A DNA stretch of 64,000 bases from Comamonadaceae bacterium. Its GTDB lineage: Bacteria > Pseudomonadota > Gammaproteobacteria > Burkholderiales > Burkholderiaceae_C. This document shows positions 54,241 to 61,040 of the stretch, piece after piece. The stretch is from assembly GCA_027488215.1 (NCBI GenBank), contig JAIYCB010000031.1, forward strand, positions 248,001-312,000. Reading direction: 5' to 3'. Position 1 is the stretch's first letter, and every line of letters begins with the position of its first letter. The translations under genes and the position numbers were made by a program. Under the pieces are notes generated by a model, which saw only the letters and a list, made by a program, of their open reading frames with translations, searched no databases and had not been told where the DNA came from.

Positions 54241-54476
54241 TAAGCCGAACTGGCAGGGCTGTCGCCGTTCGATAAAACCCAAAAGTAAAGCGCCGTTTGC
54301 TTGGAGGCACCGGCTGGGTCAACTCAGCTAGGGTTGACAAAGGGTTGATGACCCCAAGTGAGCCCAGGCTGGTACTGGCTTGTCCTGCAACTGCGGCGCT
54401 TGTTCGAGCGCGTAAAGCTCTGAGCCCGGTCCGTTGCCGAATCGGGCTTTTGCATTTTGGGTCTCAGTTCGGCTTA
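54241..54476. repeat. 12-base inverted repeat flanking the DUF1501/lpdA gap
   Basis: TAAGCCGAACTG at 54241-54252 reappears inverted (CAGTTCGGCTTA) at 54465-54476, where it includes the lpdA stop codon. The copies bracket the 246-base convergent gap. Chance matching of 12 bases in so short a stretch is unlikely, but the meaning is not clear. The rest of the gap shows no gene. Confidence 0.4.
54423..54451 (+). terminator. Weak candidate terminator after the DUF1501 gene
   Basis: An AGCCCG/CGGGCT stem with a 14-base loop is followed by TTT on the plus strand. It lies near the end of the convergent gap, 200 bases past DUF1501. The T-run is short. Confidence 0.3.
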
Positions 54477-56372
54477 CTTCTTCACAGGCGGTAAATCGGT
54501 ACACGACCCATGCGCCACCTCAGCCGCCATGCCGATGCTTTCGCCCAGCGTGGGGTGGGGGTGGATGGTTTTGCCGATGTCCACGGCGTCTGCGCCCATC
54601 TCAATCGCCAAAGCGATCTCGCCAATCATGTCGCCCGCGTGCGTGCCCACCATGCCACCGCCCAAGATTTTGCCGTGGCCATGGGCCTCGGGGGAATCGT
54701 CAAACAGCAGCTTGGTCACACCCTCGTCGCGGCCGTTGGCAATGGCTCGGCCCGAGGCAGTCCAAGGGAACAAGCCCTTTTTCACCTTGATGCCTTGCGC
54801 TTTGGCTTGGTCTTCGGTCAAGCCCACCCAGGCCACTTCGGGGTCGGTGTAGGCCACGCTCGGGATAACGCGGGCATTGAACGCAGCGGCTGCCAGCTCT
54901 TTGTTGCCTTGCAGTTCGCCCGCAATCACTTCGGCCGCCACGTGGGCTTCGTGCACCGCTTTGTGCGCCAACATGGGCTGGCCCACGATGTCGCCAATGG
55001 CAAAGATGTGCGGCACGTTGGTGCGCATTTGAATGTCAACGTTGATGAAGCCACGCTCGGTCACTACCACGCCTGCTTTTTCGGCGGCGAGTTTTTTGCC
55101 ATTGGGCGTGCGGCCCACGGCTTGCAACACAAGGTCGTACACCTGCGGCGCGGGGGCAGTGCCGCCCTCTTCTGCCGGTGCAAACGTGACTTCAATGCCT
55201 TCGGGCAAGGCGCGTGCGGACACGGTCTTGGTCTTGAGCATGATGTTGTCAAAGCGCTTGGCGTTCATCTTTTGCCAGATCTTCACCAGGTCGCGGTCAG
55301 CGCCTTGCATGAGGCCGTCCATCATTTCCACCACGTCCAGGCGTGCGCCCAGCGTGCTGTAAACGGTGCCCATTTCAAGGCCGATGATGCCGCCACCCAA
55401 GATGAGCATGCGCTTGGGCACTTCTTTGAGTGCCAAGGCACCTGTGCTGTCCACCACGCGCGGGTCATTGGGCATGAAAGGCAAACGCACGGCTTGCGAG
55501 CCTGCAGCGATGATGGCGCGTTTGAAGGCGATCACCTTTTTGCTGCCAGTTTGCTCCTGCGCCGTGCCGCTGGTCTCCGACACTTCGAGGTGGTTGGCAC
55601 CCACGAACTGACCCAAGCCACGCACGGTGGTGACCTTGCGCATCTTGGCCATGGCAGCCAAGCCGCCAGTGAGTTTGCCGATGACCTTTTCTTTGTGGCC
55701 GCGCAGCTTGTCGATGTTGACCACCGGCTTGCCGAAATCCACGCCGAGGTCGGCCATGTGGCTGACTTCATCCATCACCGCTGCAACGTGCAGCAGCGCT
55801 TTGGAGGGGATGCAACCCACGTTCAGGCACACGCCGCCCAAGGTGGCGTAACGCTCAACCATGACCACGTTCAAACCGAGGTCAGCGGCGCGGAACGCGG
55901 CTGAATAACCGCCGGGGCCACCGCCGAGCACGAGCACGTCGCACTCGATGTCGGCAGAGCCGCCGAAGCTGGCAGCATTGGGCGCAGGGCCGTCATCGCG
56001 AGGTACGAAGCGATCCATGGATTGCCGCGCTTCTGTCACTGCGAGCCCGCTTGCGGGCGTGGCAGTCGCAATGACGGGAGCGGGACTTGCCGAGGCCGAA
56101 GAAGCAGACGCAGCAGCCGGGGCCGCAGCAGCGCCCTCGCCGTCCAGCACCAACACCACCGAGCCTTGCTTGACCTTGTCGCCCAGCTTGACTTTGAGCT
56201 CCTTCACCACGCCAGCGTGCGAGGAAGGGATTTCCATCGAGGCTTTATCAGACTCGACGGTGATAAGCGACTGCTCGGCCTTGACGGTGTCGCCGAGTTT
56301 GACCAGCAACTCGATCACGGCCACTTCGTCGAAGTCACCAATGTCAGGGACTTGAATGTCAATCAGTGCCAT
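54474..56372 (-). CDS. lpdA: Dihydrolipoamide dehydrogenase with N-terminal lipoyl domain, pyruvate dehydrogenase E3
   Basis: This E3 of the pyruvate dehydrogenase complex has its own lipoyl domain, as in several betaproteobacteria. In the 632 residues: lipoyl domain (1-76, lipoylated K43 in [14 protein letters not shown]), a linker, then the FAD domain ([17 protein letters not shown]). The redox pair is C182 and C187 ([11 protein letters not shown]), followed by the NAD domain ([16 protein letters not shown]) and HPHPTLGES. The linker (about V100-D127) is encoded by REP-like repeats and includes [19 protein letters not shown], also present in AceF. The start is the ATG at 56372, nine bases after aceF. 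The second E3, of 2-oxoglutarate dehydrogenase, has no lipoyl domain. Confidence 0.97.
55991..56075. repeat. REP-like repeat pair inside the lpdA linker
   Basis: A plus-strand unit begins CGTCATCGCGAGG and ends AAGCGATCC at 55991-56016. It is followed by a minus-strand unit at 56018-56075 whose minus-strand ends read GTCATTGCGA and GCGGCAATCCA. The GTCATTGCGA...GCAATCC pattern is that of REP-like palindromes common between genes in many proteobacteria. The second unit (58 bases) is identical to the one at 57764-57821. Both are read in frame as the LpdA linker. Confidence 0.85.
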
Positions 56373-56381
56373 ACCCAGTCC

Positions 56382-58127
56382 TTAGAGCAACACACGACGG
56401 AAGTCGCTGAGGATTTGACCCAGGAACGCGTTGAAGCGTGCCGCTGCGGCGCCGTCGATGACGCGGTGGTCCCACGTCAAAGACAAGGGCAGCATCAGGC
56501 GAGGCTGGAAGGCCTTGCCGTCCCAGACGGGTTCCATGGTGCTCTTGCACACGCCGAGGATGGCCACTTCGGGCGCATTGATGATGGGCGTGAAGTACTT
56601 GCCACCGATGCCGCCCAGGCTGGAAATGGTGAAGGTTGCGCCCGACATGTCGGCGGGGCCGAGCTTGCCGTCGCGGGCTTTCTTGGCCAGCTCACCCATT
56701 TCCTGGCTGATCTGCAAGACGCCTTTTTTGTCGGCGTCCTTGATCACGGGCACCACCAGGCCGTTCGGCGTGTCCGCCGCAAAACCGATGTGGTAGTAAT
56801 GTTTGTAGATCAGCGCATCGCCGTCGAGCGAGCTGTTGAACTCGGGGAATTTTTTCAGCGCTGCCACGCAGGCCTTGATCAAGAAGGCCAGCATGGTCAC
56901 CTTAACGCCGCTCTTCTCGTTCTCTTTGTTTGTGGAGACTCGGAAGGCTTCGAGGTCGGTGATGTCGGCATCGTCGTGGTTGGTGACGGCCGGAATCATG
57001 ATGGCGTTGCGCAGCAAGTTGGCGCCGCTGATCTTCTTGATCCGCGACATTTCCTTGCGCTCGATCGGGCCAAACTTGGCGAAGTCCACCTTGGGCCAGG
57101 GGATCAGGCCCAGTTCAGAACCGCCACTACCTGCAGGGGCCTTGGCCGCTTGCGCTTTGGTCTGCGCGGCGCCCGACATGACGGCCTTGGTGAAGGCCTG
57201 CACGTCGTCCGCCGTGATGCGGCCTTTGAGGCCGGAGCCTTTGACTTCGTCGAGCGGAACGCCCAACTCGCGGGCGAACTTGCGCACCGAGGGTGACGCG
57301 TGGGGCAAGCCGACAGAAGGGGTCACGGTCGGGTTGTGGGCTGAGGCAACACTGGCTGCATCATTGCGAGCGCCGTCAGCCCGTGGCAATCCCAACGCAG
57401 ATGTGGGTGCCTGAGATTGCTTCGCTTCGCTCGCAATGACAGCAGTGGGTGTAGCCGTCGCCAACGCGGCAGCAGCAACGGGGGATGCAACGGAAGAAAC
57501 AGCACCTTCCAAAATGGCGAGCAGGTCACCGATGTTGACCGTGTCGCCCACTTTGACTTTGAGCTCTTTGAGCACGCCAGCGGCCGAGGACGGGATTTCC
57601 ATCGAGGCTTTGTCGGACTCGACGGTGATCAGCGATTGCTCGACCTTGATGGTGTCGCCGGGCTTGACCATGACTTCGATCACGGCCACGTCTTTGAAGT
57701 CGCCTATATCGGGCACGCGCACTTGCACGGGGCCGGAGGCTGCTGGGGTGGCGGGCGCTGCACTGGATTGCCGCGCTTCTGTCACTGCGAGCCCGCTTGC
57801 GGGCGTGGCAGTCGCAATGACAGAGGATGGGCTCGCCATGACGGGTGGCGTGCTCGCCGCTGCGGTAGCAGAAGGAGCAGCCGCCGCACCAGCGGCTTCC
57901 ACCACCAGCACGATCGAACCTTGCTTGACCTTGTCACCCAGCGCCACGCGCATTTCCTTGACCACGCCCGCCGTGCTCGACGGGATCTCCATCGAGGCTT
58001 TGTCAGACTCCACCGTGATCAGCGATTGCTCGGCCTTGACCGTGTCGCCCACTTTGACCATCAACTCAATGACGGTCACTTCATCGAAATCCCCGATGTC
58101 CGGGACTTGTACTTCTACCAATGCCAT
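56382..58127 (-). CDS. aceF: Dihydrolipoyl acetyltransferase, pyruvate dehydrogenase E2
   Basis: E2 of the pyruvate dehydrogenase complex, transferring acetyl from lipoate to CoA. In the 581 residues: lipoyl domain 1 (1-77, K43), linker 1 (about 80-132), lipoyl domain 2 (133-208, K173), linker 2 (about 210-272), subunit-binding domain (about 275-312, VRKFARELGVPLDEVKGSG), a third Ala/Gly-rich linker and the acetyltransferase domain ending in DHRVIDG with H554 and D558. Linker 1 contains [19 protein letters not shown] (about V103-S121) and linker 2 VIASEAKQS (about 230-238), both encoded by REP-like repeats. The start (ATG at 58127) lies 40 bases after aceE. Lipoyl domains are nearly identical to each other and to LpdA's. 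Confidence 0.97.
   Translation of the reverse strand: MALVEVQVPDIGDFDEVTVIELMVKVGDTVKAEQSLITVESDKASMEIPSSTAGVVKEMRVALGDKVKQGSIVLVVEAAGAAAAPSATAAASTPPVMASPSSVIATATPASGLAVTEARQSSAAPATPAASGPVQVRVPDIGDFKDVAVIEVMVKPGDTIKVEQSLITVESDKASMEIPSSAAGVLKELKVKVGDTVNIGDLLAILEGAVSSVASPVAAAALATATPTAVIASEAKQSQAPTSALGLPRADGARNDAASVASAHNPTVTPSVGLPHASPSVRKFARELGVPLDEVKGSGLKGRITADDVQAFTKAVMSGAAQTKAQAAKAPAGSGGSELGLIPWPKVDFAKFGPIERKEMSRIKKISGANLLRNAIMIPAVTNHDDADITDLEAFRVSTNKENEKSGVKVTMLAFLIKACVAALKKFPEFNSSLDGDALIYKHYYHIGFAADTPNGLVVPVIKDADKKGVLQISQEMGELAKKARDGKLGPADMSGATFTISSLGGIGGKYFTPIINAPEVAILGVCKSTMEPVWDGKAFQPRLMLPLSLTWDHRVIDGAAAARFNAFLGQILSDFRRVLL
57361..57440. repeat. Inverted pair of REP-like units inside aceF linker 2
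   Basis: A unit at 57361-57393 (TCATTGCGAG ... GGCAATCCC, plus strand) faces a unit at 57413-57440 (minus-strand GTCATTGCGAGCGAAGCGAA then GCAATCTC), with about 20 bases between. The facing pair has the layout of a bacterial interspersed mosaic element. It is read in frame as the second AceF linker (VIASEAKQS ... ADGARNDA). Confidence 0.85.
57764..57821 (-). repeat. REP-like unit inside aceF linker 1, identical to the lpdA copy
   Basis: This 58-base unit is base-for-base identical to 56018-56075 in lpdA. It lies in the same orientation and the same reading phase, and both encode [19 protein letters not shown]. Its minus-strand ends are GTCATTGCGA and GCGGCAATCCA. Flanks outside the 58 bases differ between the two sites. 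Confidence 0.9.
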
Positions 58128-58167: not shown

Positions 58168-60864
58168 TTACGCGTAAAGGGGATTCACTTTTTCGGTCTT
58201 GATGCCGTATTTTTTGATGGCTTCTGCCACTTGAGCGACCGGCACTTTGCTCTCTTCGCTCAAAGCCTTGAGGGCCGCGACCACGATGTAGTGGCGGTTG
58301 ACCTCAAAGTGCTCGCGAAGCTTGCTGCGGAAGTCAGAGCGGCCAAAACCGTCGGTGCCCAGCACTTTGTAGGTGCGGTCTTTCGGAATGAAAGGACGGA
58401 TCTGCTCGGCATAGGCCTTCATGTAGTCGGTGGATGCGACCACGGGGCCGCTGTGCTTGGCCAGCTGTTGGCCCACAAACGACACACGCGGTGTTTCCAT
58501 GGGGTGCAGCATGTTGTGGCGCTCGGCGTCTTGACCGTCGCGGGTCAGTTCGTTGAAGCTTGGGCAGCTCCACACGTCGGCCTGGATGCCCCAGTCGGTG
58601 GCCAGCAGGGTCTGTGCGGCAATGGATTCGCGCAGGATGGTGCCCGAGCCCAGCAGTTGAACGCGCTTGTCACCGGCAGCGCCAGGCTTGCACAGGTACA
58701 TGCCCTTGATGATCTGCTCTTCGGTGCCGGGTGTCAGGCCAGGCATCGCGTAGTTTTCGTTCAGCAGCGTCAGGTAATAAAAGACGTTGTCTTGCTTCTC
58801 GACCATGCGCTTCAAACCGTGGTGCAGGATGACGCCGACTTCGTGTGCGAAGGTGGGGTCATAAGACACGCAGTTGGGGATGGTGTTGGCCATGAGGTGG
58901 CTGTGACCGTCTTCGTGTTGCAGGCCTTCGCCGTTCAAAGTGGTGCGACCCGAGGTGCCGCCCAACAAGAAGCCGCGCGCCTGCATGTCGCCTGCAGCCC
59001 AAGCCAAATCGCCAATGCGCTGGAAGCCGAACATCGAGTAGTACACATAGAACGGCACCATGATGCGGTTGCTGGTGGAGTAGCTGGTGGCCGCCGCAAT
59101 CCAGCTGGACATGCCGCCGGCTTCGTTGATGCCTTCTTGCAGGATCTGACCCGCCACATCTTCCTTGTAGTACATGACCTGGTCTTTGTCGACCGGGGTG
59201 TACTGCTGGCCTGCAGGGTTGTAAATACCGATCTGACGGAACAGGCCTTCCATACCAAAGGTGCGGGCTTCGTCCACAAGAATAGGCACCACGCGTGGGC
59301 CCAAGGCTTGGTCACGAAGCAGCTGGGTCAAAAAGCGCACATAGGCCTGGGTGGTGGAGATTTCACGGCCTTCGGCGGTGGGCTCCATCACGGCTTTGAA
59401 GGTGTCGAGTGAGGGCACGGTGAAGTTTTCATCGGCCTTGGTGCGGCGGTGCGGCAGGTAACCGCCCAGCGCCTGGCGGCGCTCGTGCAGGTAACGCATC
59501 TCGGGCGTGTCGTCTGCAGGCTTGTAAAAAGGAATCTTGGACAACTCGCTGTCCGGGATCGGGATGTTGAAGCGGTCACGCATGTACTTGATGTCATCGT
59601 CCGTGAGCTTCTTGGTCTGGTGCACCGTGTTCTTGCCCTCACCGGCTTTGCCCATGCCAAAACCCTTGACAGTTTTGATGAGCAGCACGGTGGGCTGACC
59701 CTTGTGATTGACCGCCTGGTGGTATGCGGCATAAACCTTTTGGGGGTCATGACCGCCGCGCTTGAGGTTCCAGATGTCGTTGTCCGAGAGGTGCGACACC
59801 ATCTCCAGCGTGCGTGGGTCACGGCCAAAGAAATGCTTGCGCACATAGGCACCATCGTTGGCTTTGAAGGCCTGGTAGTCGCCGTCCAAGGTGTCCATCA
59901 TCAGCTTGCGCAGCGCGCCGTCCTTGTCGCGGGCCAGCAGGCTGTCCCATTCGCTGCCCCAAAGCAGTTTGATGACGTTCCAGCCGGAGCCACGGAACTC
60001 GCCTTCGAGTTCTTGCACGATTTTGCCGTTGCCACGCACTGGGCCATCCAGGCGCTGCAGGTTGCAGTTGACGACAAAAATCAGGTTGTCCAGGTTTTCG
60101 CGCGCGGCCAAGCCGATGGCGCCCAGTGATTCGACTTCGTCCATTTCGCCGTCACCGCAGAACACCCAGACCTTGCGGTTTTCGGTGTTGGCGATGCCAC
60201 GGGCGTCCAGGTATTTCAGGAATCGGGCTTGGTAAATTGCCATCAAGGGGCCGAGGCCCATCGACACCGTGGGGAACTGCCAGAACTCGGGCATCAGCTT
60301 GGGGTGCGGGTAGCTGGACAGGCCTTTACCGTCCACCTCTTGTCGGAAGTTGAGCAATTGCTCTTCGGTCAAACGGCCTTCCAGATAAGCGCGGGCATAG
60401 ACGCCGGGCGACACGTGGCCTTGGATATAAAGGCAGTCGCCGCCGTGGTTTTCGCTCTCGGCGTGCCAAAAATGGTTGAATCCGGCCCCAAACATGTGAG
60501 CCAGCGATGCAAATGAACCGATGTGCCCGCCCAAATCGCCACCGTCAGCGGGGTTGTGGCGGTTGGCCTTGACGACCATGGCCATGGCGTTCCAGCGCAT
60601 GTAGGCGCGCAGGCGCTCTTCGATTTCGATGTTGCCGGGGCATCGGGCTTCTTCGGTGGGCTCAATCGTGTTGACGTAACCCGTCGTGGCCGAGAACGGC
60701 AAGTCGATGCTGTGTTGGCGCGCTTCTTCCAACAACTCTTCGAGCAAAAAGTGAGCGCGCTCAGGGCCCGCCTTTTCAATCACGGCGGACAGGGCGTCCA
60801 TCCATTCTCGGGTTTCCTGGGTGTCCAGGTCACGGACCGGTTGTTGTGGTGTTGCCGCTGTCAT
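58168..60864 (-). CDS. aceE: Pyruvate dehydrogenase E1 component, homodimeric
   Basis: AceE is the homodimeric thiamine-diphosphate E1 that decarboxylates pyruvate and acetylates lipoate on AceF. The 898-residue product contains HIGSFASLAHMFGAGFNHFW, the ThDP motif GDGEMDEVESLGAIGLAARENLDN ... NCNLQ and the EGGMSSW-like catalytic loop region (INEAGGMSSWIAAATSYS), then GRTTLNGEGLQHEDGHSH. The ATG at 60864 has a CAGGAGA site; the frame to 60945 reads into the leader. It is the first gene of aceE-aceF-lpdA. A PAS-type sensor kinase diverges from it across 176 AT-rich bases. Confidence 0.98.
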   Translation of the reverse strand: MTAATPQQPVRDLDTQETREWMDALSAVIEKAGPERAHFLLEELLEEARQHSIDLPFSATTGYVNTIEPTEEARCPGNIEIEERLRAYMRWNAMAMVVKANRHNPADGGDLGGHIGSFASLAHMFGAGFNHFWHAESENHGGDCLYIQGHVSPGVYARAYLEGRLTEEQLLNFRQEVDGKGLSSYPHPKLMPEFWQFPTVSMGLGPLMAIYQARFLKYLDARGIANTENRKVWVFCGDGEMDEVESLGAIGLAARENLDNLIFVVNCNLQRLDGPVRGNGKIVQELEGEFRGSGWNVIKLLWGSEWDSLLARDKDGALRKLMMDTLDGDYQAFKANDGAYVRKHFFGRDPRTLEMVSHLSDNDIWNLKRGGHDPQKVYAAYHQAVNHKGQPTVLLIKTVKGFGMGKAGEGKNTVHQTKKLTDDDIKYMRDRFNIPIPDSELSKIPFYKPADDTPEMRYLHERRQALGGYLPHRRTKADENFTVPSLDTFKAVMEPTAEGREISTTQAYVRFLTQLLRDQALGPRVVPILVDEARTFGMEGLFRQIGIYNPAGQQYTPVDKDQVMYYKEDVAGQILQEGINEAGGMSSWIAAATSYSTSNRIMVPFYVYYSMFGFQRIGDLAWAAGDMQARGFLLGGTSGRTTLNGEGLQHEDGHSHLMANTIPNCVSYDPTFAHEVGVILHHGLKRMVEKQDNVFYYLTLLNENYAMPGLTPGTEEQIIKGMYLCKPGAAGDKRVQLLGSGTILRESIAAQTLLATDWGIQADVWSCPSFNELTRDGQDAERHNMLHPMETPRVSFVGQQLAKHSGPVVASTDYMKAYAEQIRPFIPKDRTYKVLGTDGFGRSDFRSKLREHFEVNRHYIVVAALKALSEESKVPVAQVAEAIKKYGIKTEKVNPLYA

Positions 60865-61040
60865 GCTTGTCTCCTGCAATGTTTGTCTCGAATTAAATGA
60901 TGCCAGAATTTTCCCATGATTCCGAAAAAATTTCAAATAGTGCACATATGTTTTGTATTATGAAATTTAATGAGCGACAGAAGTTAAGAATTGAGTTCGT
61001 TAGAAATCAGGAAGACAAGCCTGTCCTCTAAACTTAGGAC

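Follow-up and report, generated by a model that had tools for sequence, protein, structure and literature searches.

How have aceF and lpdA, two genes of the same pyruvate dehydrogenase (PDH) operon, come to hold exactly the same 58 bases in the linkers between their protein domains, when the lipoyl domains next to these linkers are so much less alike? The two genes lie in a window of 64,000 nucleotides (the whole stretch of DNA that was analysed) from a Comamonadaceae bacterium, here termed G000. Its genus is probably Limnohabitans, as named Limnohabitans loci are found among its relatives, and its habitat is probably freshwater. The features around which the question turns are the following.

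54474..56372, minus strand: lpdA, encoding a lipoyl domain, a linker and dihydrolipoamide dehydrogenase, 632 aa (ORF list, linker comparison)
56018..56075, minus strand: 58-base nested REP in the lpdA linker, a 19-aa peptide in the coding frame (sequence comparison)
56382..58127, minus strand: aceF, encoding two lipoyl domains, two linkers, a binding domain and the acetyltransferase core, 581 aa (ORF list)
57764..57821, minus strand: 58-base nested REP in aceF linker 1, where congeners have a plain 27-base REP (VIASEARQS or VIASEAKQS)
58168..60945, minus strand: aceE, the operon's upstream gene (ORF list)

Positions 57764-57821 of aceF and 56018-56075 of lpdA agree at 58 of 58 bases, and both blocks lie on the coding (minus) strand in one frame, leaving the ORFs intact, just as the first-pass annotation of this DNA had described. 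The block is the longest run that aceF and lpdA have in common; the second longest comprises 20 bases and joins lipoyl-domain codons of the two genes. Since the lipoyl domains adjoining the blocks agree at just 186 of 240 bases (46 of 80 third positions), the identity is local and is not ordinary paralogy. Besides, each gene has its own flanks, and we therefore concur with the annotation that the block is not simply a duplicated domain. Within the 64-kb window, all eight matches to the REP head GTCATTGCGAG (at most one mismatch; shuffle mean 1.44) fall into the aceF and lpdA linkers. A scan of aceE for GTCATTGCGAG heads returned no match, and the REP tail motif alone was not enriched in the window (13 matches vs 10.3 expected, with one mismatch).

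While the annotation had taken the 58 bases as the unit, the base unit of the family is 27 bases long (GTCATTGCGAGCGAAGCGCGGCAATCC), is the commonest among the units read, with 15 occurrences, and is found as VIASEARQS at the same sites in congeners. The 58-mer is a nested variant of it, in which an inner unit of opposite orientation interrupts the outer one (GTCATTGCGA...GAAGCGCGGCAATCC), and its peptide VIA[[11 protein letters not shown]]EARQS compares with VIA[S]EARQS for the plain unit. This nested make-up had been missed at first, as had the inverted partner in lpdA, the REP pair in aceF linker 2 and a decayed head, which are located as follows.

55992..56016, plus strand: inverted REP-like partner in the lpdA linker, a 10-aa peptide on the coding strand, 3' of the nested unit there
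57360..57392, plus strand: inverted REP completing the aceF linker 2 pair, with GLPRADGARND as its coding-strand peptide (head matching)
57414..57440, minus strand: complete 27-base REP in aceF linker 2, VIASEAKQS (head matching, translation)
57781..57813, plus strand: inner unit of the nested REP in aceF, GTCACTGCGAGCCCGCTTGCGGGCGTGGCAGTC, oriented against the outer unit
57825..57842, minus strand: decayed REP head, GTCATGGCGAGCCCATCC, VMASPS, adjoining the aceF linker 1 unit

The inner unit is arranged in lpdA as it is in aceF, starting there at 56035. The 10-aa peptide of the lpdA inverted partner is identical in lpdA of the congeners G102 and G029, with V in place of F in G028. In aceF linker 2, the REP pair spans 57360-57440 and is separate from the 58-mer.

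Exact GTCATTGCGAG heads number 83 in the 3.07-Mb assembly of G000, compared with a single one in the reversed control, and they lie mostly outside recognised genes. A genome-wide search of this assembly (53 contigs, 90% complete) found no third copy of the exact 58-mer. Allowing up to three mismatches, we observed the inner sequence in two of the 90 genus genomes: G000 has two copies and G029 has seven, one of the latter in lpdA and the remaining six in two arrays without an overlying coding-like ORF. According to the first-pass annotation, a lack of other genomic copies would have made a mobile repeat unlikely. Such a lack applies to the exact 58-mer in G000 and does not extend to its family, which is dispersed across the genome, nor to the nested form, which recurs in G029.

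The head statistics refer to the surroundings of 82 of the 83 heads, the remaining head being situated in the window. GTC is preceded by C in 49 cases and by T in 26 (75 of 82 together), and by G or A in seven. Tails matching our pattern accompany 53 of the 82 heads (52 of them 27 bases long; 35 ending in CCA and 18 being variants), while 29 heads had no tail under the pattern used. Neighbouring elements are paired as HH most often (35), followed by HT (27) and TT (26). The commonest unit folds through ATTGC/GCAAT and GCG/CGC pairing with an internal loop, and a common variant folds otherwise.

In Di Nocera 2013 (PMC3733652), CGTC REPs are defined by a terminal CGTC (or TGTC) tag and a CCA tail, have an 8-9 bp stem that starts with AT pairs and a loop of 4-5 bases, and occur predominantly as HH dimers, with TT and HT pairs and clusters being rare and no transposase gene being associated. 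The same paper describes some CGTC REPs as intragenic, including in uvrA, suggests flexible linkers and loops as tolerant sites, and equates the Rickettsia palindromic elements RPE-4 and RPE-6 with CGTC-4 and CGTC-1, respectively. Measured against this description, the present family largely fits the CGTC superfamily: it shares the CGTC/TGTC tag, for the most part the CCA tail, the ATTGC/GCAAT ends, HH as the commonest pairing, the missing transposase association (as examined for PF01797) and the presence of some units in genes, uvrA among them. On the other hand, neither clusters nor TT and HT pairs are rare here, and the fit in stem geometry is uncertain. Further differences concern the host genus (probably Limnohabitans), the genes involved (aceF, lpdA, purL, hrpA, uvrA and rmlB), and the nested and seemingly converted copies traced in this study. 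As in-frame palindromes within genes for known proteins, these REPs also resemble RPE-4 and RPE-6 by analogy; in this sense, the annotation's comparison with the Rickettsia elements may be upheld in principle. Those elements belong to another lineage, whereas here the same sites are empty in some congeners and occupied in others. With GTAG REPs/REPINs, the family has in common that short palindromes are dispersed and occur in paired arrays, yet unlike those with RAYT, it carries the C/T-GTC tag in 75 of 82 heads and has no member within 3.3 kb around the Y1 gene of G000.

As for a candidate mover, PF01797 genes are present in 85 of the 90 genus genomes, including 57 of the 60 that lack the REP, and one was found in G000. 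This distribution, together with the fact that the single G000 gene is flanked by repeats of another, GGGGTCAGATCCCAATTA-type kind, led us to reject a RAYT as the mover; REP heads of the family were not found in the 3.3 kb around that gene. Neither a target-site duplication nor a transposition or insertion event was seen. The Y1-type transposase itself (L111:1402-2226) is a 257-aa open frame between GGGGTCAGATCCCAATTA-type inverted repeats and resembles the TIR-flanked transposases with GGGGWSAS ends that are described in PMC3733652.

In 30 of the 90 same-genus genomes, the REP pattern is matched once or more with up to two mismatches, amounting to 338 matches in total and 287 outside G000. 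One or more PDH linkers were readable in 76 genomes, and all three in 61. Comparing the aceF and lpdA linkers with those of relatives, as the annotation had proposed, showed that most of them lack the REP: it is present in 9 of the 76 genomes (G000, G004, G007, G026, G028, G029, G033, G068 and G102) and was found in none of 80 loci from named relatives, including 26 lipoyl stretches of unassigned linker type that were scanned as well. By linker, occupancy is 7/67 for aceF linker 1, 1/74 for aceF linker 2 (G000; the G029 linker is broken off by a contig end) and 7/71 for lpdA. Occupied linkers exceed empty ones by about 6-14 aa on average (rows below 40 aa left out here, but retained in the occupancy counts). 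The earlier idea of a mobile palindrome that was inserted and kept as the linker holds as far as a dispersed family in the reading frame is concerned, but the linker does not owe its origin to the repeat, being A/P-rich already in empty relatives.

On a tree of the PDH genes (77 rows, linkers excluded), the fewest changes that account for occupancy are six for aceF linker 1, one for aceF linker 2 and seven for lpdA, which argues for a patchy pattern brought about by repeated gain, loss or exchange. G029 is not sister to G000 on this tree, and of the five rows nearest to G000 by path, G004 alone has a linker REP. The PDH linkers hold 12 of the 287 pattern matches outside G000 (13 of 338 with G000), compared with an expectation of about 0.04 if matches were uniform and of 0.4 if a tenth of the genome were permissive; since the events are non-independent and the test was post hoc, we take this excess just as a sign of strong concentration.

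Several loci met in this survey were left uncounted or concern other sequences. In a Comamonadaceae MAG, a REP pair (L053:6671-6751) that had been considered as an intragenic aceF case proved upon translation to lie in the aceF-lpdA intergenic spacer, and matches with six mismatches in L036 and L095 were regarded as background. G026 (L119) has QRSALSVERE and ERSAVSVERE segments, derived from another repeat, in its aceF linker 2 and lpdA linker. Besides, a contig labelled Akkermansia muciniphila (L037; CALQKH020000001.1) carries an aceF 78% identical to that of G000 and probably belongs to a mislabelled or contaminated MAG.

Inside genes, forward units read VIASEA(R/K)QS or close variants, and the forward heads examined there are read as GTC ATT GCG (VIA, or VMA and VVA where decayed). 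All eight units scored in coding sequence (8/8) are forward and stand in phase 0, with the units of the PDH linkers, purL, uvrA and rmlB in agreement. For about 12 distinct sites, counted by hand and perhaps not fully independent, the chance of a single phase is roughly 2 in a million. Because five of the six frames of the REP unit are open, this bias does not reflect stop avoidance alone, and it probably stems from selection favouring a peptide that is small, soluble and flexible. With 27 bases equalling nine codons, an insert keeps the frame, and the intact frames suggest that REP codons would be translated as extra linker peptide.

What, then, made the two copies identical? At the site of the 58-mer in aceF linker 1, plain REPs are found in G026, G029, G102, G028 and G004, and a decayed one in G068 (VVASEAQPSS), the codons just 3' of which equal those of G000 (AGT GCA GCG CCC GCC ACC CCA GCA GCC TCC GGC CCC). 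In lpdA, G028 and G102 carry two REPs in direct orientation and then an inverted MDR.VPRDDG unit. The order in G029 is nested unit, plain REP, inverted unit, and G000 has the nested and the inverted unit only. Since this aceF site bears a REP, plain or decayed, in six congeners, the perfect identity most likely results from gene conversion between REPs that pre-existed in both genes. It is also the simplest account, as both sites bear REPs in relatives, each gene of G000 has kept its own flanks, and just the REP interior is common. The event looks recent, given that the two G000 copies differ at 0 of 58 bases, while the nested unit in lpdA of G029 differs from that of G000 at 4 of 57. Conversion probably ran from lpdA to aceF; G029 has the nested form in lpdA and not in aceF linker 1. 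Along these lines, the 58-mer would have originated when one REP was opened by another and would then have been homogenised in aceF and lpdA, possibly accompanied by a deletion between the direct repeats in lpdA.

The identity might instead reflect two independent insertions of the entire 58-mer in G000, and the nested form does exist as a repeat with seven copies in G029. We consider this unlikely, however, as the 58-mer sits where congeners have the plain REP, with the own flanks of each gene kept, as aceF linker 1 of G000 retains no second plain REP, and as the 58-mer has no other copy in this genome. That a linker segment was merely duplicated, with no mobile repeat involved and the likeness to REPs being incidental, would agree with the 58-mer occurring just twice in G000, yet is hardly credible given that the family has 83 heads in the genome, most of them outside recognised genes, and that G029 has the nested form in intergenic arrays.

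Taking both genes together, we consider it very likely that CGTC-type REPs entered the interdomain linkers of aceF (E2) and lpdA (E3), thereby lengthening the peptide, and that the 58-mer arose by nesting and was then shared through conversion. Insertions that broke a protein would have been purged, so that survivors would be confined to flexible linkers and loops and to a harmless phase. A competing explanation has REP-bearing PDH linker segments spreading between species through homologous recombination of the operon, with local insertion being rare. It would accommodate the patchy occupancy on the PDH tree, the lpdA MDR.VPRDDG arrangement that is common to G000, G028, G102 and G029 without these forming one clade, and the two hrpA sites shared by G000 and G065, which are apart on that tree. 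Against it, the flanks in lpdA fall into three types (G007/G068, G033 and the MDR.VPRDDG group), and G000 alone carries this REP in aceF linker 2 (1/74), which still calls for several separate insertions. As a full account we find it rather doubtful, but given the patchy occupancy and the position of G029, which is not sister to G000, part of the pattern may be due to interspecies exchange of linker DNA and not to fresh insertion. Very improbable, in turn, is that the inserts were kept for an mRNA hairpin that tunes translation or the E2:E3 ratio. While the four REP stretches examined fold better than shuffles (z -2.4 to -4.0), most congeners have no linker REP, and mean best 60-nt energies are not lower in occupied than in empty linkers (aceF linker 1, -30.4 vs -31.8; lpdA, -27.3 vs -28.3; aceF linker 2, -24.6 vs -30.9); with occupied and empty linkers alike in folding energy, we dropped the hairpin as a selected feature.

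Returning to the insertion of REPs into coding sequence, G000 has 45 REP clusters outside the window, five of which lie in frame inside conserved genes (purL, hrpA at two sites, uvrA and rmlB). Relative to solved homologues, the inserts are left unaligned in RmlB (query 166-190, at chain residue 124), PurL (query 619-677, at 602-606), UvrA (query 478-528, at 619-630) and HrpA (query 491-562, at 567-571, and 1004-1053, at 1009-1019). For uvrA and hrpA, the insert status rests on this comparison, and for purL and rmlB also on short sites in congeners, 16 of which were examined. G065 has two REP matches, both in hrpA at the sites of G000. An L219 head in an ABC-transporter-like ORF was considered a chance match, and L206 as well as one L198 cluster, possible N-termini, were ambiguous; all three were left uncounted.

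In purL, the site is empty (LVLEDKGQESPVDMPMD-like) in 10 of the 16 congeners, and is occupied by the same REP in G028, G102 and G029. G069 and G026 have a TTCAGCG/TTGAGCG repeat there, while G084 has other sequence. The rmlB loop contains the same REP in G028, G102 and G068; in G029, G070, G035 and G033 it has palindrome-like sequences of different kinds, and in G017 other sequence. It is short in G026, G084, G013, G007, G065, G069, G060 and G004, as it is in a second gene of G028. The rmlB palindrome of G070 is dispersed, with 11 matches in a 200-kb sample (none in a like sample of G026 or in the reversed control). Dispersal of the TTGAGCG repeat is weakly shown, as the 200-kb sample of G026 contains, outside purL, one place with six overlapping matches. 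Across rmlB (L217; congeners L259-L278) and purL (L196; congeners L279-L294), the same codons hold different repeats or none.

With other repeats at these positions in congeners, the purL and rmlB sites look like shared landing pads. Tentatively, and leaning slightly against it, we extend this to a set of permissive codon positions (the PDH linkers, the PurL loop, the RmlB loop and the two HrpA sites) that unrelated palindromic families would fill, empty and rewrite by gene conversion throughout the genus. If so, mobile repeats would be a continuing raw material of protein linkers. Intragenic REPs as such are already known; new is their recurrence, phase lock and multi-family occupancy. A search of open-licence PMC text found VIASEAKQS and VIASEARQS in no paper, and no title or abstract among the matches listed dealt with REPs in PDH linkers. 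Catalogued intragenic REPs may be accidents, or they may be a way for proteins to acquire sequence; on this question, a single genus offers occupied, empty, decayed, nested and apparently converted states, as well as different repeats at the same codons. Such states allow tolerance, choice of target and turnover to be tested in core enzymes of bacteria that are probably harmless inhabitants of freshwater.

Two more REP-derived stretches were observed in frame in other congeners. G033 carries VVASEAKQS in a 406-aa ORF (L229:1557-1582), and G067 has two REP units in a 1066-aa ORF (L237:1579-1658), which may encode a large exoprotein.
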